Notes under the pieces: model-generated
Databases searched by the model: none
What the model was told of the DNA's origin: nothing
The model's input: the letters and a program-made list of their open reading frames with translations, nothing else
Position numbers and translations under genes: made by a program
In this document: positions 1 to 17,490 of the stretch, one piece after another
How the letters are laid out: each line of letters opens with the position of its first letter
Position numbering within the stretch: the first letter of the stretch is position 1
IMG/VR virus record: IMGVR_UViG_3300008450_007097
Coordinates: 1 to 22,444 of that record
Length of the DNA stretch: 22,444 nucleotides
Strand: one strand, 5' to 3'
Source: a virus

Positions 1-215
1 CCCCAATTCTTACTATCAAAATAGATATCATCATGACACAATACAACAATATCGTTTGTTGCTTGTTCTAAAATCATATTGTAAGCTTCGGGTAATGAGT
101 ACTTACCCTCATTTTCTATTGGGATTATTTGTGGGTTAGAGACCCCACATGATTTTTTTAATAGTTCAACAAAACTATTATCAATTTTTCTGGTTGAAAA
201 TCCTATTGTAATCAT
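1..215 (-). CDS. Glycosyltransferase, N-terminal fragment (cut by window edge)
   Basis: The first 71 codons of a minus-strand gene are present; the rest lies beyond base 1. The start ATG overlaps the stop of the UDP-galactopyranose mutase gene in a TAATG junction, so the two are probably translationally coupled. The peptide opens MITIGFSTRKID and later shows the segment NDIVVLCHDDIYFDSKNWG. A hydrophobic strand followed by an H-D-D motif is typical of GT-A fold, family 2-like glycosyltransferases, where the acidic pair holds the metal and the nucleotide-sugar. Its position directly after glf suggests, by inference only, that it could use UDP-galactofuranose. The acceptor is unknown. The C-terminal half is missing, so substrate specificity cannot be judged. 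Confidence 0.6.
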   Translation of the reverse strand, partial: MITIGFSTRKIDNSFVELLKKSCGVSNPQIIPIENEGKYSLPEAYNMILEQATNDIVVLCHDDIYFDSKNW

Positions 216-1288
216 TAAAATTGTTCTACAAAATTTAAGGCCGATAATATTACTTTGTCCATGTCATAATACTTGTATTCGGCAAGTCTACCTCCAAAAT
301 AAACATTTTTTTCCTTAATGGAAAGTTTTTTATATTGTTCGTATATGTTATTATTAGTTTCATCATTTACAGGATAATAAGGGTCTGTGATTTCAGGTTT
401 ATACTCCGTTGGAAATTCATCACTAACCCACGTAAATTCTGAATTTGAGTTTTCAAAATGTTTGTGTTCTATCGTTCTAGTTTTAGGAACTTTCTTTTCT
501 GTATAATTCATTACTGCAGTTCCTTGATAGTTTTTCATATCTAACTTTGAGTGTTCGAACCTTACAGTTTTATATTCTAAATGACCGTATTGATAGTTAA
601 AATATTTATCTATCGGACCTGTGTAAATTACATTTTTATGTTTTGGTAATTCATCAGTAAAAAAGTCGGTACTTAACTTAACGTCAATGCCGTCTAATAA
701 TTTTTCAAATATTTTAGTATATCCTTCGACAGGGATACCTTGGTATTTGTCGTTAAAGTAATTGTTATCGTAAGTTAATCTTACAGGCAACCTCTCAATT
801 ATTTCTTTAGGTAATTGTTTTGCAGATTTCATCCACTGTTTTTCAGTATAACCTTTAATAAGTTTTTTGTAACATTTTTTACCAACTAAACTTATTGCGT
901 ACTCCTCTAAATTTTTAGGGTTAGAATTATTATGTTTTCTTAAAAGTTTAAGTAACTCATGTGGGTGAGTAAGATTATATATTTTAGAAAACGTCCACAT
1001 GTTAAAAGGTAATGAATAAGTCTCACCTTTATAATTTGCGACAGGTCTATATGTGAAATCATTAAATAACGTGAATTGGTTTATCCAACCCCAAACCTTT
1101 TCATTTGAAGTATGAAAGATATGTGGACCATATTCGTGAACATTAATACCATCTCTATTTGATGTATAACAATTACCACCAATATGGTCTCTTTTATCTA
1201 TCACACATACTTTATGTCCTTTTTTATTTAATTCGTATGCACATATCGAACCAAAAAATCCTGAACCTACAATTAAAAAATCGTACAT
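215..1288 (-). CDS. glf: UDP-galactopyranose mutase
   Basis: This flavoenzyme interconverts UDP-galactopyranose and UDP-galactofuranose, the donor for galactofuranose-containing glycans. The N-terminus MYDFLIVGSGFFGS is a FAD-binding Rossmann motif (GxGxxG, residues 8-13), followed by the DKRDHIGGN segment at 31-39. The C-terminus has the family signature GGRLAEYKYYDMDKVI. The length of 357 residues is close to the 365-390 usual for bacterial Glf. I chose the ATG at 1288 rather than an upstream ATG at 1315: Glf proteins normally begin right at MYDxLIVG, and 1288 lies one base after the dUTPase stop, whereas 1315 would overlap that gene. It sits in a minus-strand operon with two glycosyltransferases, so it probably feeds a phage-encoded glycan pathway that modifies the virion or the host surface (inference). 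Confidence 0.93.
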   Translation of the reverse strand: MYDFLIVGSGFFGSICAYELNKKGHKVCVIDKRDHIGGNCYTSNRDGINVHEYGPHIFHTSNEKVWGWINQFTLFNDFTYRPVANYKGETYSLPFNMWTFSKIYNLTHPHELLKLLRKHNNSNPKNLEEYAISLVGKKCYKKLIKGYTEKQWMKSAKQLPKEIIERLPVRLTYDNNYFNDKYQGIPVEGYTKIFEKLLDGIDVKLSTDFFTDELPKHKNVIYTGPIDKYFNYQYGHLEYKTVRFEHSKLDMKNYQGTAVMNYTEKKVPKTRTIEHKHFENSNSEFTWVSDEFPTEYKPEITDPYYPVNDETNNNIYEQYKKLSIKEKNVYFGGRLAEYKYYDMDKVILSALNFVEQF

Positions 1289-1289
1289 A

Positions 1290-1901
1290 TTATAATCCTG
1301 TACTACCAAACCCATTTGAGTTACGGTCCTTATCGTTAATTTTTTCTACTTTAATTAAGTCAACCCACTTACCACTAACAACAGGACAAAGTACTGCTTG
1401 TGCTACTTTTTGACCTTTTTCTATTTTAACTTTTTGGTTTGTGGTGTTAAACATAATAACTTTTATTTCTCCTTGATAACCGCTATCTACTGTGCCTGGT
1501 GAGTTTAATACCATAAGACCTTGATTAAGTGCTAAACCACTTTTAGATCTCACTTGTATTTCATATCCATCGGGGATATCAAATCTTAAACCTGTAGGAA
1601 TTAATCCCCTATCACTTGCGTGAATCCATACGTCTTCATTTGCCCTTAAATCAAATCCCGAATCAGATTTATATTCGTAATCGGGATTTTTATTTTCACT
1701 ATCGTTAATATAACGTAGTGGTACTTTGGTATTTATAATACTTTCGTTTTGGTCATCAAATTGTTTTTGTAAATCATCAACATCAATACCCATAGACTCT
1801 AACATTGCCTGAGGGTTAGACATATCAACATTATTAAACTTACCTTGTAAGTCTTTTAACATTTTCATTTGATTCTTAATATCTTTAAATTTATCAAACA
1901 T
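1290..1901 (-). CDS. dut: dUTP diphosphatase with N-terminal helical extension
   Basis: Trimeric-type dUTPase, hydrolysing dUTP to dUMP and pyrophosphate to keep uracil out of phage DNA. All five family motifs are visible: SDSGFDLRA (79-87), RSKSGLA (118-124), GTVDSGYQGE (136-145, catalytic Asp139), GQKVAQ (163-168) and the C-terminal arm RNSNGFGSTG (193-202). The total of 203 residues is about 55 longer than a standard dUTPase (roughly 145-150). The extra part is an N-terminal, charged, helix-prone segment (MFDKFKDIKNQMKML..., ending near residue 58) that I do not recognise. The start ATG overlaps the exonuclease stop as TAATG, and glf begins one base after its stop, so translation of the operon is tightly coupled. 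Confidence 0.93.
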   Translation of the reverse strand: MFDKFKDIKNQMKMLKDLQGKFNNVDMSNPQAMLESMGIDVDDLQKQFDDQNESIINTKVPLRYINDSENKNPDYEYKSDSGFDLRANEDVWIHASDRGLIPTGLRFDIPDGYEIQVRSKSGLALNQGLMVLNSPGTVDSGYQGEIKVIMFNTTNQKVKIEKGQKVAQAVLCPVVSGKWVDLIKVEKINDKDRNSNGFGSTGL

Positions 1902-2629
1902 TATTTTAATTCTTTTAATTTTGTTATGAAATCAACTAATACTTTAACATCTTTTTCACAGTAATCGGATATCTCATTTAACCTACTTTGATTATTCCAA
2001 TATACTTCATGTACATTACCTCCATGAATAGGTCCGTCTTTTGGTGTTTCAATACCCATAGTAGAACAAACCAAATCCAATGAACCAATAGATGTGTATG
2101 ACCCGTATTGCCAAATTTCTTTTGTGTCAATTGCCTTTACCTCCCAAGGTTTAGTATCATAAGAAGGAAGAATTTTTGATGGCATAATTCCATTAATCAT
2201 CATTCTTTTTGCTAGCATCGGGATATCGAAGTTCTTAAGATTATGACCACAAAGATAGAAATCTAACTTATGACAACGATCCAATAAGTTTCTAACATCA
2301 ATTAACAATTGTTTTTCATCGTGATTAGAAAAAGTTTGTTGTTTAATTCCATCATTAGTTACAAATGCCATAGACACACAGACAATCTTTGCAAATTCAG
2401 GGACAAGTGCTGAACGTTTTTCATAAACGTCATTCATCTTTTGAAGTTCTTCTTCTAAACCATCTGCCTCAACATTGTCTTCAGGAAACCGTTTTAAGAA
2501 CCAATCAAAATATTTTACAAATTGTTCTGCAATTTTTGGGTGATTTTCTTTACACCCTTCCCAATTACGACATAATCCAACTGTTTCAATGTCTAAAAAT
2601 AAAATTTTGTTAATAGGTATGTTTATCAT
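1901..2629 (-). CDS. DnaQ-like 3'-5' exonuclease (PolB exonuclease-type)
   Basis: A stand-alone RNase H-fold exonuclease resembling the proofreading domain of family B polymerases. Exo I is FLDIET (Asp13, Glu15), Exo II is GHNLKNFDIPML (Asn130, Asp135) and Exo III is YCEKDV (Tyr223, Asp227), giving the DEDDy acidic set. At 242 residues it is a single domain, similar to the family described as predicted 3'-5' exonucleases related to PolB. A likely role is end trimming in replication or recombination, or degradation of host DNA; the sequence does not decide which. The DNA polymerase at 9749 has its own exonuclease motifs, so this protein is not a missing proofreading subunit. Its start overlaps the upstream glycosyltransferase stop (ATGA) and its stop overlaps the dut start. 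Confidence 0.85.
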   Translation of the reverse strand: MINIPINKILFLDIETVGLCRNWEGCKENHPKIAEQFVKYFDWFLKRFPEDNVEADGLEEELQKMNDVYEKRSALVPEFAKIVCVSMAFVTNDGIKQQTFSNHDEKQLLIDVRNLLDRCHKLDFYLCGHNLKNFDIPMLAKRMMINGIMPSKILPSYDTKPWEVKAIDTKEIWQYGSYTSIGSLDLVCSTMGIETPKDGPIHGGNVHEVYWNNQSRLNEISDYCEKDVKVLVDFITKLKELK

Positions 2630-3840
2630 TTTAATAAGGATTTGTATAGTTCAGCTCTGTCTTTTGTTACTTTGTTTAAGTCATAGGTATCTTTAACCGT
2701 TTCGTATAACCTTTGACCTAAGTCATAAGCAAAATTAGGGTTATCAATTAATTTTTTCATATATTTAGACCAATCACTATGGTTTTTATGTTCGTCAACT
2801 AAAAGGGCATTACCATCTGTAAATTCACCATTTTTTAATCCATGTTTTAAATCAATTGTGTATGGTCCAATATTGGATGCGATAATTGCTTTTTTATGGA
2901 ATCCCGCCTCAATAACTTTAAGTTGTGATTTAACACGATTAAATATATGGTTTTTAATCGGAGCTAATGAAACATCAAACCATTTGTAATTAGAAGCATA
3001 ACTTGTTACAGGTTTAGTCCAAATTCTATTATAGAATGGTAAAACATCTGAAACGTATTCCTCATCTTTAAATGTCATTAAAAATTCTTTATGTTTTGGG
3101 TCCACAACTCTGTAGTTATCTGTAAAAATTTCTTCATATCGAGCCCAAACTGTTTCTTCTGGTTTAATATCTCTTTGTTTTTGTTCACCTGTTTCTTTAT
3201 TTATTTCCGTAACAGTCCCCCTCGTATCAAACCCACAAAGATACATACTAAATTTATCTTTATACGACGAAAGTTTATTAATCGTACCATCTAATAATTT
3301 TAAGTCATGTAAGTGCGAAGAACCACCTAACCAACCGAATCTTAATTTGTCTGATGGTTCGGTTTTTACATTAAACTGACCTTCTTTTGGATTAATTGCG
3401 TTTGGTAAAACGTATACGTTTTTATTGAATTTAGAAATTTCATTAGCAAAAATTGAAGTGGTAGTTGTTACATGACCAGCAACTTTAAGGTTGTTCATAA
3501 TTTTTTCATGTAATTTTACCTGTATTACCATTTGGTGTACAGGATGGTCTTTGGTCGGTAACCAATAATCGTCCAAGTCCATTATGGTTACAATACCGAT
3601 TGAGTTTAACCTTTTAATTAAATCTACAGAATTGTCATAATCGTGCCCGATTGTCCTATGAAAATGTACAATGTCGTATTGCTTCCAATAGTTATAATCA
3701 TTGACTTTTGGTTCGTAATCTATATCCACGTGAAACTCATTCGGATAATTGTTTTGTAACATGACGTGAGGATCAATAGACCTAAATTTACCAACACCTG
3801 TTTTATCGGACGGTAATACTAATACTTTAATTTTGCTCAT
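2626..3840 (-). CDS. GT-B type glycosyltransferase (GT4-like)
   Basis: This 404-residue protein has the two-lobed pattern of group 1 glycosyltransferases. The N-terminal lobe has KIKVLVLPSDKTGVGKFR and YDIVHFHR (55-61). A hinge region VYVLPNAINP (142-151) is typical of GT4 enzymes. The C-terminal lobe opens with RFGWLGGSSHLHDL (167-180). A donor-binding stretch FDVSLAPIKNHIFNRVKS (288-305) is followed by LKVIEAGFHKKAIIASNIGPY (307-327). No membrane segment or signal peptide is seen, so it should act in the cytoplasm. It is the first gene of its operon, after the terminator of the preceding cluster. The TATTTAT motif abuts its ATG with no spacer. Donor and acceptor are unknown. The operon context suggests that phage particles or host surface glycans are decorated (inference). 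Confidence 0.8.
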   Translation of the reverse strand: MSKIKVLVLPSDKTGVGKFRSIDPHVMLQNNYPNEFHVDIDYEPKVNDYNYWKQYDIVHFHRTIGHDYDNSVDLIKRLNSIGIVTIMDLDDYWLPTKDHPVHQMVIQVKLHEKIMNNLKVAGHVTTTTSIFANEISKFNKNVYVLPNAINPKEGQFNVKTEPSDKLRFGWLGGSSHLHDLKLLDGTINKLSSYKDKFSMYLCGFDTRGTVTEINKETGEQKQRDIKPEETVWARYEEIFTDNYRVVDPKHKEFLMTFKDEEYVSDVLPFYNRIWTKPVTSYASNYKWFDVSLAPIKNHIFNRVKSQLKVIEAGFHKKAIIASNIGPYTIDLKHGLKNGEFTDGNALLVDEHKNHSDWSKYMKKLIDNPNFAYDLGQRLYETVKDTYDLNKVTKDRAELYKSLLK

Positions 3841-3927: not shown

Positions 3928-4545
3928 TTATTCCATTTTTTTAACTTTAGTAACTTTACCAATAAACAAATGTTTACCAACTTTAAATTGTATAACATCG
4001 TTTGAGTTTGTTGTTGATTCAACAATCATACCCGCATCTTTAAGTTCTTCTCTAACAACATCTCTAACAGTATCCCTAACAACATCACGAATCATAGATT
4101 TCATTTCATTAATATTGAAATTAGATGATGGTTGTTTTGTTGTTAACTCCTTAACTGATTGTGGTTGTTGGTCAGAAGTATTTGAATTCATTTTCATCAA
4201 TCTTTGCGCCCCTTCAATAATATCATCTGAAATTGTTGGTGATGATGAAGATGGTTGAACTATAGGTTGCTCAATCATTAATCTTTTAATTTCTTCAGGT
4301 AATTTTGAATTTTTAATTCTATCTGCTTCTATAGGTTTGGTTGGGTCAAAAGACCCTTTAGGTGTTGAGTTTTCTGGTAAAAATTCTTGAGGTATATTGT
4401 AATTCCCCGATATTGGTTGAAAATCCTCAACTATTGGTTTATTAATATGTCTAGAATCCATAGACCCCCTATTTATACCTTCTGTTTTTTCCATTATTTT
4501 TTTAGATACTGCCAATCTTTGCATTAAATCTTCCGCTGCTCCCAT
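3928..4545 (-). CDS. Hypothetical protein, possible virion or assembly protein
   Basis: I do not recognise this 205-residue protein. It has three visible parts. The N-terminus (1-35) is helix-prone. The middle (40-145) is rich in Pro, Ser, Asn and Gln and is probably disordered. A strongly amphipathic helix follows at about 146-172, built on the repeated unit RDVVRDTVRDVVRE, which looks like a short coiled coil that would oligomerise. The C-terminus (184-205: VIQFKVGKHLFIGKVTKVKK) is probably a small beta element. Composition and layout would suit a scaffold or adaptor protein, but this is a guess. It is the last gene of a five-gene minus-strand cluster, 22 bases downstream of the WYL gene, and is followed by a good intrinsic terminator. 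Confidence 0.6.
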   Translation of the reverse strand: MGAAEDLMQRLAVSKKIMEKTEGINRGSMDSRHINKPIVEDFQPISGNYNIPQEFLPENSTPKGSFDPTKPIEADRIKNSKLPEEIKRLMIEQPIVQPSSSSPTISDDIIEGAQRLMKMNSNTSDQQPQSVKELTTKQPSSNFNINEMKSMIRDVVRDTVRDVVREELKDAGMIVESTTNSNDVIQFKVGKHLFIGKVTKVKKME

Positions 4546-4567: not shown

Positions 4568-4960
4568 TTAAATTTCAAGATTATCGAATTTTGCATTTAA
4601 AAATACTCTAACCATTGATTTATCTCCGTTAGGGTTATATAACGGTCTTACATCATCAAAAGTATCTCCCTGTTGTTGATAAGTCAATATTTTATCAACT
4701 CTAAAAAGTCTCCATCCAGGAATTGGGTTTCCCTTAACTTTGTTGGAGTGGGAAACTCCCTGTCTTTCCCAAGCCCTTAATACCATATTTCCTTTTTTAC
4801 TAATACCTAAACACACTGGTTCTACGTCACGATAACCTCTACCGTATTCATCACCTGCGTAATTAATTGTTATTACCTTTCTTTTTTTGATGCTATTTTG
4901 AACATCATCTAAAGCGGCAACTTCAGTAATTAATTTGCTTAAGCTATTAATTAATTTCAT
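4568..4960 (-). CDS. Stand-alone WYL-like domain protein
   Basis: A 130-residue protein whose centre (about 29-95) resembles a WYL domain: a strand VITINYAGDEY, then YRDVEPVCLGISKKGNMVLRAW, then WRLFRVDKILTY. The YRxVEPxxL and RxFRxDRI-like elements are characteristic of WYL ligand-sensing domains. WYL domains bind nucleic acid or nucleotide-like ligands and usually sit behind a DNA-binding helix-turn-helix; here there is no HTH. The N-terminus MKLINSLSKLITEVAALDD is a short basic-hydrophobic helix containing I-T-E at 11-13. This recalls T4 capsid-targeting peptides cut by the prohead protease after (I/L)xE (inference). The start overlaps the upstream stop as ATGA. Regulator or injected internal protein are both open possibilities. 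Confidence 0.65.
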   Translation of the reverse strand: MKLINSLSKLITEVAALDDVQNSIKKRKVITINYAGDEYGRGYRDVEPVCLGISKKGNMVLRAWERQGVSHSNKVKGNPIPGWRLFRVDKILTYQQQGDTFDDVRPLYNPNGDKSMVRVFLNAKFDNLEI

Positions 4961-5250
4961 GATACAGTATAATATGGGTTGTTAGATGAAAATTTATTAA
5001 CTTTTAAATCTTCTTTTCGTTCAGAAATATCTATTGAAGTTCCTGCTTGTTGGTTATAGACATCTAAATCTCCACCTGTACCCCTACCAATTTTATCACC
5101 ATTAGCAATAGCATCTGGATGAACAGAAGAATACGGGTCAGAAGGTTTAAAATCATTTCTAGGAAAAAGTTTTTTTCTTTGTTCTTCAGCAATTTGTGAT
5201 AGTGCATTATCAGGTTGCGAAAAATCTAATTTATCTGATTGTATTGCCAT
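4957..5250 (-). CDS. Hypothetical small hydrophilic protein
   Basis: This 97-residue protein is not recognised. It is polar and low in hydrophobic residues, with an N-terminal helix-prone stretch (about 10-28) and a Gly/Asp-rich middle, so much of it may be disordered or extended. There is no signal peptide, membrane segment or Cys. It overlaps the WYL gene by four bases (ATGA) and the upstream gene by one base (TAATG), which strongly supports it as a real, translationally coupled gene of the cluster. A minor virion role is possible from context only. Confidence 0.6.
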   Translation of the reverse strand: MAIQSDKLDFSQPDNALSQIAEEQRKKLFPRNDFKPSDPYSSVHPDAIANGDKIGRGTGGDLDVYNQQAGTSIDISERKEDLKVNKFSSNNPYYTVS

Positions 5251-5702
5251 TATATTATTTTTTTCATTAGTTTATTTATTCTATCTACGTTTTCATTAAC
5301 CTTTAAATCGTCTACGGTTGACCCATGTTTGTCGTTTAGGTTAAAACTATTTTTTTCATGTGAATCTAAATATTGGTTTTGCATACCAGCATCAGACTTA
5401 ATTTTTTTACCACTTAAATCATTGTCCCTCCAAACTCTTAAAACCTCATCACACCATTGTTTCATTCTATCTCCCCCATTTAATATAAATGGAGCGTCTT
5501 CTTTGTTTCCATTGTAACCATCAAACCAATTCTTAATTCTTTTAATTTGTTGATATGTTGCCTTTTTAGAAGTTCTTAAATCTTGATTTCTTTTATATCC
5601 CTCTATGTTATTATTACCACCAATCGAAGCAAAACAATCACTTAAGTGTTTTATTAACGAATCGGGTATAATTGCAATTCTATTATAAAGATTACTGTTC
5701 AT
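5250..5702 (-). CDS. Hypothetical protein
   Basis: This 150-residue protein is not recognised by family. The N-terminal two-thirds looks helical and globular, with Trp-containing segments (KRIKNWFDGYNG near 54-65 and MKQWCDEVLRVWRDND near 80-95). The last 40 residues are polar and probably include a short amphipathic helix (VDRINKLMKK). No catalytic motif is seen. It overlaps the preceding gene by 11 bases and the next gene in a TAATG junction, so it is part of the same coupled unit. Function unknown. Confidence 0.6.
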   Translation of the reverse strand: MNSNLYNRIAIIPDSLIKHLSDCFASIGGNNNIEGYKRNQDLRTSKKATYQQIKRIKNWFDGYNGNKEDAPFILNGGDRMKQWCDEVLRVWRDNDLSGKKIKSDAGMQNQYLDSHEKNSFNLNDKHGSTVDDLKVNENVDRINKLMKKII

Positions 5703-6447
5703 TTTTTAAAATTGTAATTAATTCTTTAACACTTATACCGTTATCTTTGGCCATTTTTTTAATGGACTTTATATTTCTAACTAATAAAGGGTTAATATCT
5801 AATATTTTTTTACCGACACTATCATCATTATATTTTTCTTTGTCTAATAAAACATCCTCAGCAATATCACTTTCATCTATTTCTTTTTCTTTTAAAATTG
5901 GTCTACCTACAAACCCTTTTTTATGTTTATACTTAGACTTTTTATCTCTTTCAGGACTTTTACCAAATTCATCGTCAACTCTTTGTTCTGCCTTTTCATC
6001 ATCCATGCCCAATTTTTCTTTGAAATATTTAAGACTTTCTTTCGCGTCCATATCTTTTGTGTCTTCAAAACCAAAGGCTTTTGACATGTTTTCTTCTTTT
6101 ACGTGACCTTCGCCGTAGTAACCATACCAACCTCTTAACAATGGGTCTCTTGGATTTCTTGCTGAAGGTATAATTTGGTCCATTGTTTTTGTACCTATAC
6201 CCGTACTTGCAGGGTCTAATATCGGCGTATTTGATGAAAGCCATGTACCATCGTCATCAACAAGTTCATTAACTTCAGATTCTTTAGGTTTCTTACTATT
6301 TTTAGTTTTAGACAAAAATATGTCGTGAGTCTTACAGGGCATGTATTTTCTTTCTCCATCTTCATTATGATAGTGATAACCAGCACAGCCCAAAGTTTTA
6401 GAAACTCTTTCCGCTCTTTCCTTTGTTGAATATTTATACGTTTTCAT
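5692..6447 (-). CDS. Hypothetical protein with N-terminal Cys/His cluster
   Basis: This 251-residue protein is the first gene of the minus-strand cluster. The N-terminus contains LGCAGYHYHNEDG...YMPCKTHDIF, with Cys21, His25, His27, Cys38 and His41, which could form a small metal-binding module (inference from spacing). I have an unverified recollection of similar LGCxGxH...MPCxxH segments in other large phages. The middle (about 45-190) is highly charged and Lys/Glu/Asp-rich, probably disordered. The C-terminus (about 215-251: LLVRNIKSIKKMAKDNGISVKELITILKNEQ) is helical and could be an interaction domain. Its start lies 51 bases from the divergent start of the gene at 6499, across a shared inverted repeat. 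Confidence 0.6.
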   Translation of the reverse strand: MKTYKYSTKERAERVSKTLGCAGYHYHNEDGERKYMPCKTHDIFLSKTKNSKKPKESEVNELVDDDGTWLSSNTPILDPASTGIGTKTMDQIIPSARNPRDPLLRGWYGYYGEGHVKEENMSKAFGFEDTKDMDAKESLKYFKEKLGMDDEKAEQRVDDEFGKSPERDKKSKYKHKKGFVGRPILKEKEIDESDIAEDVLLDKEKYNDDSVGKKILDINPLLVRNIKSIKKMAKDNGISVKELITILKNEQ

Positions 6448-6498: not shown

Positions 6499-9294
6499 AT
6501 GCCGACTCAGAATTTAAATACATATTATTATCCAAAATATAAATCATTATTGAATTCAAGACAATATTTTGATTTGACTTTGGCTGCGGATGAAAGGGAC
6601 TATGATGAAGAAGTTGTATTTTCTGCGGACATTATCGCGGCTAACGACGGTAATAGACTACCAATAAATATGGATTTAAACTATACCGGGTCATCACCAC
6701 AATTAACAATGACTTTTGATAATTTTTATTCAGGGGCAACTTTAGTTTCTAAAAATTATTATAATCCAAATAACTTAGATTTAAATTGTTATTCAGCATT
6801 TACAGGTGCATGTGATGTTGGTTTAGTTGCAACAGATAATGGGTTATTTACAAAAATGTCAGGAGAAACATTATATTATTCTATGGGTATTAGAAATGAT
6901 TATAAATTTCATCCACATTACTACGATAGAAGAATGAAAATGCATACCGTTACTGGATATACATTACCACCAAATCAAGTATTTTCAGGAAGACCAAAAA
7001 ATACAATATATAATATTATTTCAAAAACAGGAAGTACTGTGGGTTATTACCAAGAACTTTATGGGGGATTTTATCAAGGATTTTATAAATTGTTTGGTTA
7101 TGACTATGAGGTGTACCCTGAAAGAATGAATAAGGGTTGGACCATGGAAACTGTCATTAAACCAAGAATTATTGATGAGTATTGTATATATGAGGACACT
7201 GAAGAATACCTTAATGATATATACCCAAATAATTCAGGTACTTTCTTTTATTTTGGAACAAGGGCTGAAAACAAATATTACCATTTTGCCACAGGTAGTC
7301 CTGAATCTTATAGTAGTTATACCAGATCTACTACAGGACTTACTAGTTTACAAAGTTGTAAATGTTCAGACACTGGAGTAACAAATGCAAATTGCGTTAC
7401 TCTATACCCACAAAGTGCAACAACCGCGGTACATCAAATTGGGTGTGGGTGTGGCGCATGTACTGAACTAATACCAGTACCACCATTAGACCCTAAGTTT
7501 GATGTTCTCTCTAATGCCATGTCTATAAGATTTAGTGGTTGTCCTGCAAATCCAAGACTTTGCGTTAAGGTCATAAAGATTACAGGTGATTGCGTCACCA
7601 CTGGAAGTTGTCAAACAACAGGATTAACTTGGCAGACGGGATATACCGTAACAGAAGCATGTAGTCCACCAATATATGATGTGTGTAATTATGTTTGTAG
7701 TGCAATAACTCAGGATAGGTGGGTTATGGTTACTGCGGTATATGAAAGATATACAACTATAGAGGAATGTGATTTATATAATCTTGGGGGTTTAAATGAT
7801 ATAAGGCAAGTCACATATCAGTCAATTTTGAATAATACATCATATAATTTGATAATGCCACCTGAAACACACTCAGGAACAACAAAAGAAGATAAAGTTT
7901 ACAAAATTAGATTTGACCATAAATGGTTTGATGACGCTTGGTATAGAATGGGCAGATTAAAGTTATATATTAATGGGTATTACTTTATGGTTATTGAAAA
8001 CTTTGAAGAAATTATTCCGAGAGAATTAAACACCGAAAAAGAAAAACAAATTGGGGTCCCATTTAATATTTCTTGGGGTGGAGGTACTCAAGGATTACAC
8101 GACCATTTAATTTTTTCTTCGACCACATTAACTAACGGACCATACAAACAAGACCCAGAATTATTCCCTAATAATATTTTATCGGCAACAACATTATCAG
8201 GATTGTCAACTAACATCCTGCTAGAACAAAACTTTGGCGGTACGTTCATGGGTGGGATATCGCAATTTAGAATGTATACGGAGGCGTTTAGTAGTCCTCA
8301 AGTACAGCACGATTTTAGAATATTAAAAGATAAATTTAATTTATTTAATTACTGGTGTCCAAATTGTTTGACCCCTAATTCGGGATGTACTTCAGCATCG
8401 ACACATACAAATTCTTTAGTTTTATATAGTTCTGTTAGTGGTATTGGTAATTTTACCGGTAGTTTATCGGGAGCTTGTAGTGCAGAAGCTTGTTTAAATA
8501 ATGGGTCATGTTCTACGGTGACAGGTATAAATGTACGGGCAGATGTATCGGTTCCTGTTATTGGTACTACATTCTATAGTGCTAGTACTGGATGTACGGT
8601 AATGAGTAGTTTAAATGGTTACTATGCATTTAATAATTCAGGTACATACACAACTTATGAAATTACAAACGGTATCGTCACTTGTGTGTCAAGATGTTTA
8701 CCGGTAGGTCCAACACCAACACCTACACCTACACCAACACCTACACCAACCGCAACACCGACTCCAACTCCAACACCTACACCAACACCAACTCCTACGC
8801 CAACCGTAACACCAACACCAACAGCAACACCAACACCATCATCAATATTTAATATGGTTATTGTACAAGATGGGCCAAACGTAGTTATGTCAGGTACAGG
8901 TACAATTAATTTAACCGATTTGACACCAAGACCGTTTATTGATTTCCCAAACACATATATGTGGCCATTACAATCAAGATTCTCACCTGGACCAACCCCG
9001 TCTTGGGGTGGTAATTATTATACGGGAACCACATTTACCATGGCACCTTCTTTTGGTTCAAGTTTTTTACTTAACGCCAGTTCTGGTAGTGGAAGTGGTG
9101 TAGGGGTGGTATATAATCCGTATATTGGGTCAGAATCACTTATTATTGACTCTAGTTACGTATCAGGAGCACCTATTACAACATACAGTACTTTTAATAA
9201 TACAACTTTAAACTCATTAGGGTTAATATCAGGAACTTATACATATTCTTGGGGAACTGGTCCAAATTATGGGGTAATTATCCTACAAATATAA
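6499..9294 (+). CDS. Large Cys-rich virion surface protein, LamG-like, with Pro-Thr linker
   Basis: This 931-residue protein is most likely an exposed tail-fibre, adhesin or decoration protein. Residues 1-400 are Tyr- and Asn-rich with several Cys clusters (for example KCSD and GCGCGACTEL near 314-323). Residues about 408-611 read like a LamG/concanavalin-type sandwich: WVMVTAVYERY, then GRLKLYINGYYF, then FMGGISQFRMYTEAFSSPQV. Residues 738-780 are an almost pure Pro-Thr repeat with a few Ala and Val. The C-terminal domain (783-931) contains VVMSGTGTINLTDLT and ends LGLISGTYTYSWGTGPNYGV, which resembles a domain I remember from bacterial secreted proteins. There is no signal peptide, as expected for a phage structural protein. 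Receptor binding is inferred from architecture only. Confidence 0.7.
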   Translation: MPTQNLNTYYYPKYKSLLNSRQYFDLTLAADERDYDEEVVFSADIIAANDGNRLPINMDLNYTGSSPQLTMTFDNFYSGATLVSKNYYNPNNLDLNCYSAFTGACDVGLVATDNGLFTKMSGETLYYSMGIRNDYKFHPHYYDRRMKMHTVTGYTLPPNQVFSGRPKNTIYNIISKTGSTVGYYQELYGGFYQGFYKLFGYDYEVYPERMNKGWTMETVIKPRIIDEYCIYEDTEEYLNDIYPNNSGTFFYFGTRAENKYYHFATGSPESYSSYTRSTTGLTSLQSCKCSDTGVTNANCVTLYPQSATTAVHQIGCGCGACTELIPVPPLDPKFDVLSNAMSIRFSGCPANPRLCVKVIKITGDCVTTGSCQTTGLTWQTGYTVTEACSPPIYDVCNYVCSAITQDRWVMVTAVYERYTTIEECDLYNLGGLNDIRQVTYQSILNNTSYNLIMPPETHSGTTKEDKVYKIRFDHKWFDDAWYRMGRLKLYINGYYFMVIENFEEIIPRELNTEKEKQIGVPFNISWGGGTQGLHDHLIFSSTTLTNGPYKQDPELFPNNILSATTLSGLSTNILLEQNFGGTFMGGISQFRMYTEAFSSPQVQHDFRILKDKFNLFNYWCPNCLTPNSGCTSASTHTNSLVLYSSVSGIGNFTGSLSGACSAEACLNNGSCSTVTGINVRADVSVPVIGTTFYSASTGCTVMSSLNGYYAFNNSGTYTTYEITNGIVTCVSRCLPVGPTPTPTPTPTPTPTATPTPTPTPTPTPTPTPTVTPTPTATPTPSSIFNMVIVQDGPNVVMSGTGTINLTDLTPRPFIDFPNTYMWPLQSRFSPGPTPSWGGNYYTGTTFTMAPSFGSSFLLNASSGSGSGVGVVYNPYIGSESLIIDSSYVSGAPITTYSTFNNTTLNSLGLISGTYTYSWGTGPNYGVIILQI
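8710..8838 (+). repeat. Pro-Thr coding hexanucleotide-type tandem repeat
   Basis: About 129 bases of degenerate CCNACN units (for example CCAACACCTACACCAACACC) encode the Pro-Thr linker, residues 738-780 of the surface protein. Codon choice varies among CCA/CCT/CCG/CCC and ACA/ACT/ACG/ACC, with GCA and GTA interruptions. Unit gain or loss in steps of six bases would keep the frame, so the linker length can change freely. Confidence 0.9.
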
Positions 9295-14073: not shown

Positions 14074-15156
14074 TTACTTTTTTTCTAATAGTGAATTAAA
14101 AGAATCATTAACAAATTCCCAATTAACCACTTTCCAAAAATTTTTAATATACTCGTCTCTTTTGTTTTTATACTTTAAATAATATGCGTGTTCCCATAGG
14201 TCTAAACCTAATAGTGGATATCCATTTTCTTTTTCTGTATTCATTAATGGATTATCTTGATTTGATGTTGTTGTGATTTTTAACTTATTATTTTTTGTTA
14301 ATATTAACCAAACCCATCCAGAACCAAATTTTGTTTTACCCTCTTCCTCAAATTTTTCTTTAAATTTTTCAAAAGAACCAAAATCTTTTTCTATTTTAGA
14401 TAATATAGGGTCTTTTATTTGTTGTTTTTTTGGGGATAGCATTTTCCAAAACAAAGCGTGATTAAAGGCACCACCACCATTGTTTTTAACAATTTTATTA
14501 AATTTAGAAACTTTTTTAATGATTTCTTCTAATTCTAAATCAGGACCTTTAATTTTTTCTAACTCAACATTTAATTTTTCAACATAAGTTTTGTAATGTT
14601 TAGTGTAGTGAGTTTTCATAGTTTCACTATCAATAAAAACACCCACAGAGTCATAATTATAAGGTAATTTTTCTATACTTATTTTTTTTATTTCGGTTAT
14701 AATGTTTTGTTTTGATACTGATTCTATTTTTAATTTATTTTCTATTTCTTCAATTTTTTCTTTAAATGGGGAATATAATTTTTTTTCAATAGATTTATTA
14801 TCCTTTTCAAATTTTTTAATATCTGCACCGGCTTTAGCGTTAGCTTCATCTTCATTTTTACCGCCAATGTCCTTACCTTTTTTTCTTTTTAGTACGGTTC
14901 TTTGATATTCATGAATCCACTCATGTGATAATGTTTTTAAAATATCTCGATTAATCCGGTCTTTAACTAAAATTTTTAATAAACTACCACTTGTTCTTGA
15001 ACCAGTGGTCATTTTACCGGTTCTATTTTTTTGAAAACTAATGGTAACGTCGTTTTCTAACGGATGTTCCTTTTTTAAAAAGTTTATGAATTCTTTAATT
15101 AAAGATTCCCCACCTTTTGTCGGAGTACACCCAATATATTTAATCTTAACTTCCAT
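14074..15156 (-). CDS. Zincin-like metallopeptidase / Mn-type superoxide dismutase fusion
   Basis: A 360-residue two-domain protein. Residues 1-130 contain HEWIH (78-82) followed by NEDEANAKAG (101-110), the HExxH plus downstream Glu arrangement of zinc metallopeptidases. Residues 130-160 are a charged helical linker. Residues 163-356 are a full Fe/Mn superoxide dismutase: LPYNYDSVGVFID, MKTHYTKHYKTYV, NNGGGAFNHALFW, FGSGWVWL, PLLGLDLWEHAYYLKYKNKR and FWKVVNW. All four metal ligands are present (His183, His233, Asp319, His323), as is the gateway Tyr191. Gln300 in NQDNPLM and the GGG stretch fit the Mn subtype. There is no signal peptide. It lies 12 bases after the SNF2 stop and is followed by the neck gene. 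Peptidase activity is inferred; the SOD fold is clear. Confidence 0.88.
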   Translation of the reverse strand: MEVKIKYIGCTPTKGGESLIKEFINFLKKEHPLENDVTISFQKNRTGKMTTGSRTSGSLLKILVKDRINRDILKTLSHEWIHEYQRTVLKRKKGKDIGGKNEDEANAKAGADIKKFEKDNKSIEKKLYSPFKEKIEEIENKLKIESVSKQNIITEIKKISIEKLPYNYDSVGVFIDSETMKTHYTKHYKTYVEKLNVELEKIKGPDLELEEIIKKVSKFNKIVKNNGGGAFNHALFWKMLSPKKQQIKDPILSKIEKDFGSFEKFKEKFEEEGKTKFGSGWVWLILTKNNKLKITTTSNQDNPLMNTEKENGYPLLGLDLWEHAYYLKYKNKRDEYIKNFWKVVNWEFVNDSFNSLLEKK

Positions 15157-17007: not shown

Positions 17008-17490
17008 ATGAAAAAAATAATAAAACTTACAGAATCTGATTTAGCAAGAATTGTTATAAATGTTATAAATGAAAATAACAATGAAAAAAAAAGAAGTCAT
17101 ATACTTTTATATAACTGTCTGATGACTAAAACTAATTGGTATAATAAATCAAATATCAGAAGCGTTGAAAATAAAAATTGGTCAATTATCGAAGGTAGTT
17201 TAGAATCGGGCGATAAAGTAGTTTATGCAAGAGAATTTGTTAACGAAAAATTAAAAAATCGAGAAATAAATTATGGTTCACAACGTTTAAGATGTGAGCG
17301 TAAAAACAGTAAAATTAATTGTCAACTTTTAACGTTTATGGATGGAGACAAACAGAGTATTTGGCTACTGAACAAAACTTATGTTGGAGATAAAAAATTT
17401 ATTTGGTACAGTGAAGGTGTTACAACAACATGTGATGAACTTCAAAAAATTGTAAATGATGAAGCAAATAAAGCACATATTAATGACTAA
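17008..17490 (+). CDS. Small protein with LTESDL-type N-terminal helix
   Basis: This 160-residue protein of unknown function has its own start motif and its own terminator, so it is a single-gene unit. The first 22 residues form a basic, amphipathic helix: MKKIIKLTESDLARIV, then INVINE. I recall this LTESDLxxIVxxVIxE pattern at the N-terminus of otherwise unrelated proteins in uncultured phages, from memory and unchecked. The I-N-E at 20-22 fits the (I/L)xE consensus of T4-type prohead proteases, so the segment may be a removable packaging or targeting peptide (inference). The remaining 138 residues look globular, with strands rich in Trp, Tyr and Lys and four Cys (near 38, 95, 104 and 147). 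No catalytic motif is visible. Confidence 0.6.
   Translation: MKKIIKLTESDLARIVINVINENNNEKKRSHILLYNCLMTKTNWYNKSNIRSVENKNWSIIEGSLESGDKVVYAREFVNEKLKNREINYGSQRLRCERKNSKINCQLLTFMDGDKQSIWLLNKTYVGDKKFIWYSEGVTTTCDELQKIVNDEANKAHIND

Follow-up and report, generated by a model that had tools for sequence, protein, structure and literature searches.

What a WYL domain does in a phage, when it stands alone and begins like a capsid-targeted protein, was the question raised by ORF 4568-4960 (minus strand) of a 22,444-base window, a fragment of a virus record with a partial tail-sheath gene at its right end. In the initial annotation the product was described as a stand-alone WYL-like domain with a leader resembling those of T4 internal proteins (IPs), which could be packaged in the head and injected to act on host defence or transcription. 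Features of the window are collected in Table 1.

Table 1. Positions of the WYL gene, its parts, its neighbours and the second predicted leader within the 22,444-base window (h, hydrophobic; ↓, predicted cut)
Feature	Positions	Strand	Remarks
Stand-alone WYL-domain protein	4568..4960	-	130 aa, 14.8 kDa
Predicted capsid-targeting leader, residues 1-13, MKLINSLSKLITE	4922..4960	-	L3, h7, h10, h11, E13 spacing
Predicted prohead-protease cut, Glu13↓Val14	4919..4924	-	T4 gp21 site L/I-x-E; clade capsid LINE↓A
Predicted mature part of WYL protein	within 4568..4960	-	117 aa, 13.4 kDa, pI 9.4
WYL domain, residues 16-94, Sm-like fold	4679..4915	-	Pfam match and fold comparison
Conserved basic loop, R84-L-F86-R87-V-D-K90	4691..4711	-	probable equivalent of the PafB beta4/beta5 ssDNA loop, by motif
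C-terminal motif NPNGDKSM, residues 109-116, family-specific	4613..4636	-	outside Pfam WYL; (nearly) invariant in A1
First gene of operon, encoding a 251-aa DUF3721-domain protein	5692..6447	-	conserved gene order
150-aa protein, same operon as WYL gene	5250..5702	-	49/49 loci
97-aa protein, directly upstream of WYL gene, stop/start overlap	4957..5250	-	49/49 loci
205-aa protein, directly downstream of WYL gene	3928..4545	-	49/49 loci
Glycosyltransferase-like protein (404 aa), PolB-type 3'-5' exonuclease, dUTPase	1290..3840	-	remainder of conserved run
Second predicted leader, MKKIIKLTESDLARIVINVINE, on ORF 17008-17490	17008..17073	+	leader family 2

The ORF was confirmed as a real gene encoding a WYL domain. 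Residues 16-94 matched Pfam WYL (PF13280) at 26.8 bits against a curated cut-off of 21.8, and WYL was matched at E ≤ 0.01 by 24 of 31 diverse homologues. An AlphaFold2 model of the 130-residue protein (pLDDT 77.8, pTM 0.71) was compared with the PDB using Foldseek, and the top folds were PafBC, BrxR, DriD-ssDNA and CapW-ssDNA; the probability against solved WYL folds was 1.00, but E-values were only 1e-3 to 8e-2 and TMq was about 0.5. A PDB sequence search gave no significant match, so the assignment rests on the Pfam match and the fold comparison; a PHROGs search gave nothing convincing. A T4 gp2-type DNA end protector was considered as the fold and set aside, its fold matches being weak (E 0.13-0.2). 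No HTH was found with Pfam, just 15 residues precede the WYL domain and, because no further domain was found, the protein is taken to be a stand-alone WYL domain, as first described. Some homologues (L052, L056 and relatives) are extended at the C-terminus by a further helical part of about 100 aa.

The product begins with MKLINSLSKLITE, as stated in the initial annotation, and the leader ends in LITE at residues 10-13. In T4, the gp21 cut follows L/I-x-E, and proteins are directed to the prohead core by IP leaders 10-19 residues long. The main determinants of targeting in the 10-residue IPIII leader are residues 4 and 7, and those of processing are residues 8 and 10 (PMC9026906). Counted back from the cut these residues are P7, P4, P3 and P1, and the WYL leader matches them: residues 7 (P7), 10 (P4) and 11 (P3) are hydrophobic, and residue 13 (P1) is Glu. 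An [LIV]-x-E at residue 13 or 14 was kept in 74 of 74 distinct close homologues (72 counted by pattern and two more, starting MNL, by eye) while its middle residue varied freely, so the I-T-E motif is not a chance feature. L3 was invariant, and residues 7, 10 and 11 were hydrophobic, with Ala at residue 7 in two homologues. The leader lies outside the Pfam WYL match and was modelled with low confidence (pLDDT 52 for residues 1-10). Of the earlier description "short, basic", the first word held (13 residues) and the second held only weakly (charge +0.5 at pH 7).

No prohead-protease or capsid gene was found in the window, and the protease was therefore sought in relatives. Two longer contigs sharing window genes (54.9 and 63.2 kb) had no protease. 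Of 32 WYL-bearing contigs, 23 had a gp21-type (S77) protease scoring above cut-off, among them the closest large one, G041 (291,867 bases), and a gp23-type capsid protein was found in 19 of 24. The T4-like head set of the relatives comprised gp23 capsid, gp20 portal, T4-type terminase and S77 protease. In 18 of 18 sequences the N-terminal region of the capsid protein had, around residue 60, QAS[HF]LINE↓A, ten protease N-termini read GKG[IL]L[VI]E, and some WYL leaders read INEAAS, the same letters as in capsid LINE↓AAS. In one relative (G014) the protease/capsid/portal region includes a bS21 gene on the opposite strand. bS21 is a hallmark of Bacteroidetes lake phages, in which it is likewise placed in the head region and which were described with no mention of WYL (PMC9723584); because of the G014 gene a Bacteroidota host is likely for the WYL-bearing phages. 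When one mismatch was allowed, TATAAATA sites resembling T4 late promoters were no more frequent than expected by chance.

Reuse of leaders was examined in 1385 proteins of six relatives with leader families (G001, G002, G004, G005, G014 and G019), counting protein pairs that were alike over residues 2-16 and had no BLAST similarity from residue 31 on. There were 1486 such pairs, against 10-15 at three internal offsets, and 767 at a higher score, against 0-1. N-terminal clusters were of the types MKxIITExQYxxL, MKKxIRLTESDLxRIVxRVINE, MKxLIRxILREE, MNLQENIxRI and xVISEQ; one large cluster consisted of ordinary signal/lipoprotein peptides and was set aside. The strict spacing of the WYL leader, MxLx3hx2hhxE, occurred in 15 of 1528 proteins, with WYL proteins making up five of the 15; the same spacing ending in eight other residues instead of Glu occurred in none of the 1528. 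Bulk counts of [LI]xE near N-termini were just mildly raised; the leader signal lies in the recurring leader families and not in these bulk counts.

Leader family 2 was scanned for in IMG/VR with a DNA pattern fixing residues 1-12 only, which returned at least 127 distinct proteins with at least 92 unrelated body families. Among the matches listed, residues 13-22 were conserved though outside the search pattern, with E22 in 111 of 127 and mostly hydrophobic residues at 15, 16, 19 and 20, and conservation stopped at (I/L/V)xE↓. A tblastn search of INPHARED with the family-2 leader gave nothing, the query probably being too short. Regular-expression counts of tagged proteins were 42 in G001, 48 in G002 and 39 in G004 (~300-kb genomes); because a few of these matches are false, 35-45 tagged proteins per ~300-kb genome was taken as the estimate. 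In the window itself ORF 17008-17490 (plus strand) has a predicted cut MKKIIKLTESDLARIVINVINE↓NN before a body found in only three IMG/VR contigs. In the six relatives a few leader families ending in (I/L)xE are shared by dozens of unrelated proteins in each genome, which gives a readable list of candidate packaged proteins; the leader strings tried were not found in the literature searched. Together, the protease, the capsid site and the reuse of leaders in relatives strongly support the capsid-targeting-like N-terminus first proposed, and the retained [LIV]xE and the capsid LINE↓A support I-T-E as a site of prohead-protease type.

Relatives of the WYL protein were confirmed in 198 viral IMG/VR stretches in a first scan and in 453 in a second. 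A scan of GTDB genomes with the WYL alignment gave no relative, and INPHARED held only three, all in uncultured phages of 636-735 kb; no cultured phage carrying the gene was found there. The WYL-bearing phages are large and mostly aquatic. Every one of the 49 loci covered by 19 kb of sequence or more kept the gene order DUF3721, 150 aa, 97 aa, WYL, 205 aa, glycosyltransferase, exonuclease, dUTPase, accompanied by a divergent fibre-like gene. The WYL gene was single-copy, occurred in 9 of the 11 contigs of 50 kb or longer that have a protease, and was conserved to a degree comparable to other core genes; its constant gene order and high conservation speak for a core rather than an accessory gene. 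Those operon neighbours whose folds are known belong to nucleotide/DNA metabolism or are sugar genes; none is a head gene, and the head genes lie about 28-35 kb away.

Three further genes of the window were noted. The UDP-galactopyranose mutase gene at 215-1315 (minus strand) occurred in only 2 of 49 loci, while its neighbours occurred in all 49. A 931-aa fibre/adhesin-like protein containing a PTPTPT repeat tract is encoded at 6499-9294 (plus strand). The product of 14074-15156 (minus strand) is a fusion of an N-terminal part, which bears a metalloprotease-like HEWIHE (HExxH) motif, to Fe/Mn superoxide dismutase domains (residues 161-351).

WYL folds bind several ligands. Binding of ssDNA by PafB requires R211/R214 and also R181, R204/R208 and Y196, with F210 located in the R211/R214 loop (PMC11804915, PMC6789036). 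In the phage family R84, F86, R87 and K90 of an R-x-F-R-x-x-K motif were invariant or nearly so. By hand alignment the W-Y-L triad position (beta3) reads M59-V60-L61, in which only Leu seems kept and the Tyr required for ssDNA binding by PafB appears as Val; because the canonical Trp-Tyr appears as Met-Val, the ligand may differ from those of known WYL regulators. Both the loop and the triad correspondences were placed by motif and not by residue-level structural alignment. The conserved basic loop and the basic mature part (pI 9.4) make nucleic-acid binding plausible, and action through single-stranded nucleic acid is put forward tentatively, as somewhat short of probable. Nothing specific was found to support the action on host defence or transcription suggested at the outset: this is a syntenic core gene with conserved residues of nucleic-acid type, and its fixed gene order and its conservation speak against an anti-defence role of the fast-evolving kind.

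We propose that the first 13 residues of the WYL precursor would serve as a T4-type capsid-targeting sequence, that the precursor would join the prohead core, and that the gp21-like serine protease of the phage would cut it after Glu13 (I-T-E↓V). The basic 117-residue WYL/Sm-like domain would remain in the head with the DNA and enter the cell at infection, where its conserved basic loop would most likely bind single-stranded nucleic acid. A core early step is envisaged, for instance protection or sensing of the incoming DNA or an effect on transcription, and not the role of one among many variable anti-defence factors. The WYL fold, the invariant (I/L/V)xE, the T4-like head module and protease of the relatives and the reuse of the leader spacing are established at the level of sequence, and to that extent the earlier interpretation stands; its host-directed action gained no specific support, and the nucleic-acid role in the host given here is a guess. 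Cutting of the leader by the prohead protease is judged very probable, and packaging in the head hardly less so. Packaged proteins need not be ejected, and ejection with the DNA is given a modest balance in its favour. Taken as a whole, from leader to single-stranded nucleic acid, the proposal is considered fairly probable.

The leader could instead belong to the fold, because AlphaFold2 draws residues 2-25 as one helix; residues 1-13 would then make up the opening turns of that helix of the WYL domain or serve as a dimer contact, with Glu13 structural and no cut, and the conservation of the leader does equal that of the domain. This reading is improbable: the L3/h7/h10/h11/E13 spacing recurs on unrelated proteins, never with the other last residues tested, and a second, larger WYL subfamily has the WYL core in common (hhalign E 1e-9 and 2e-11) but lacks the 13-residue N-terminus. 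Members of this subfamily (L488-L536, L213, L214) are about 300 aa long, with an extra C-terminal region. The phages that encode them are T4-headed, about 150-735 kb in size, and have divergent S77-like proteases that score under the Pfam cut-off. In L213, LIREAA at residues 28-33 is split from the WYL domain by a 17-residue insertion. Around residue 26 most members have an [LI]xE with D or N as the next residue, which might be another cut site, and their phages' capsid protein carries SINE↓N; this is suggestive only.

Packaging and cleavage might also serve the head interior, with the protein organising or decorating DNA or aiding assembly and having no host-cell job. A basic, single-copy core protein with fixed gene order and core-gene-level conservation would suit such a role, as would the T4-headed phages of the larger subfamily, but the metabolic and sugar neighbours, the distance from the head genes and the ligand-sensing function of WYL domains elsewhere speak against it, and it is regarded as rather unlikely. 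Less likely still is an expressed, non-injected cytoplasmic sponge or decoy for ssDNA or cyclic nucleotides that blunts WYL-controlled BREX/CBASS. The defence regulators BrxR and CapW do have the WYL fold (PMC9122601), and other nucleotide sponges are used by phages (PMC11722364), but such a sponge leaves the leader without a role, conservation this deep and a gene order this fixed are not typical of variable anti-defence genes, and none of the genes beside the WYL gene was recognised as serving defence or anti-defence. An Acb4-type sponge was rejected as the identity of the protein, the Acb4 type being dsRBD-like and not WYL.

The proposed packaging of the WYL protein resembles that of T4 IPI, IPII, IPIII and Alt in the short N-terminal leader with hydrophobic spacing and an (I/L)-x-E end, in the T4-type protease and capsid protein of the same phages, and in a leader common to unrelated proteins. 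It differs from that of the T4 IPs, to which no sequence relation was found, in that the WYL gene is conserved core whereas T4 IPs are variable, and in the use of several leader families, predicted to tag dozens of proteins in each genome. The ejection proteins of giant phages offer a further comparison. In phiKZ and SPN3US a T4-related protease likewise processes many head proteins after Glu; there, however, the phiKZ motif is S/A-x-E and most SPN3US propeptides have 111-254 residues, whereas the leaders predicted here have 13-22 residues and end in I/L-x-E. With PafBC, DriD, BrxR and CapW the protein shares an Sm-like WYL fold and a basic R-x-F-R-x-x-K/R loop; unlike them it has no HTH and no recognised WCX domain, its triad Trp-Tyr is apparently Met-Val, and it is phage-encoded and leader-bearing.

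To our knowledge no WYL protein has previously been shown to be virion-delivered. If the proposal is true, this phage protein would be the first, a conserved core cargo and a first candidate for a nucleic-acid sensor or binder delivered by a virion. In the wider picture, which we hold to be nearly as probable as its opposite, large T4-headed, probably Bacteroidota-infecting phages would load dozens of unrelated proteins into each virion by way of a modular code made up of several leader families with (I/L)xE ends; a stand-alone WYL protein, injected and binding single-stranded nucleic acid as infection begins, would be one fixed member. The head cargo and injected proteins of jumbo phages are mostly unknown so far. 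If the leaders are capsid addresses, about 10% of genes would be tagged in three ~300-kb genomes, and the injected set of hundreds of uncultured phages would become readable from sequence.
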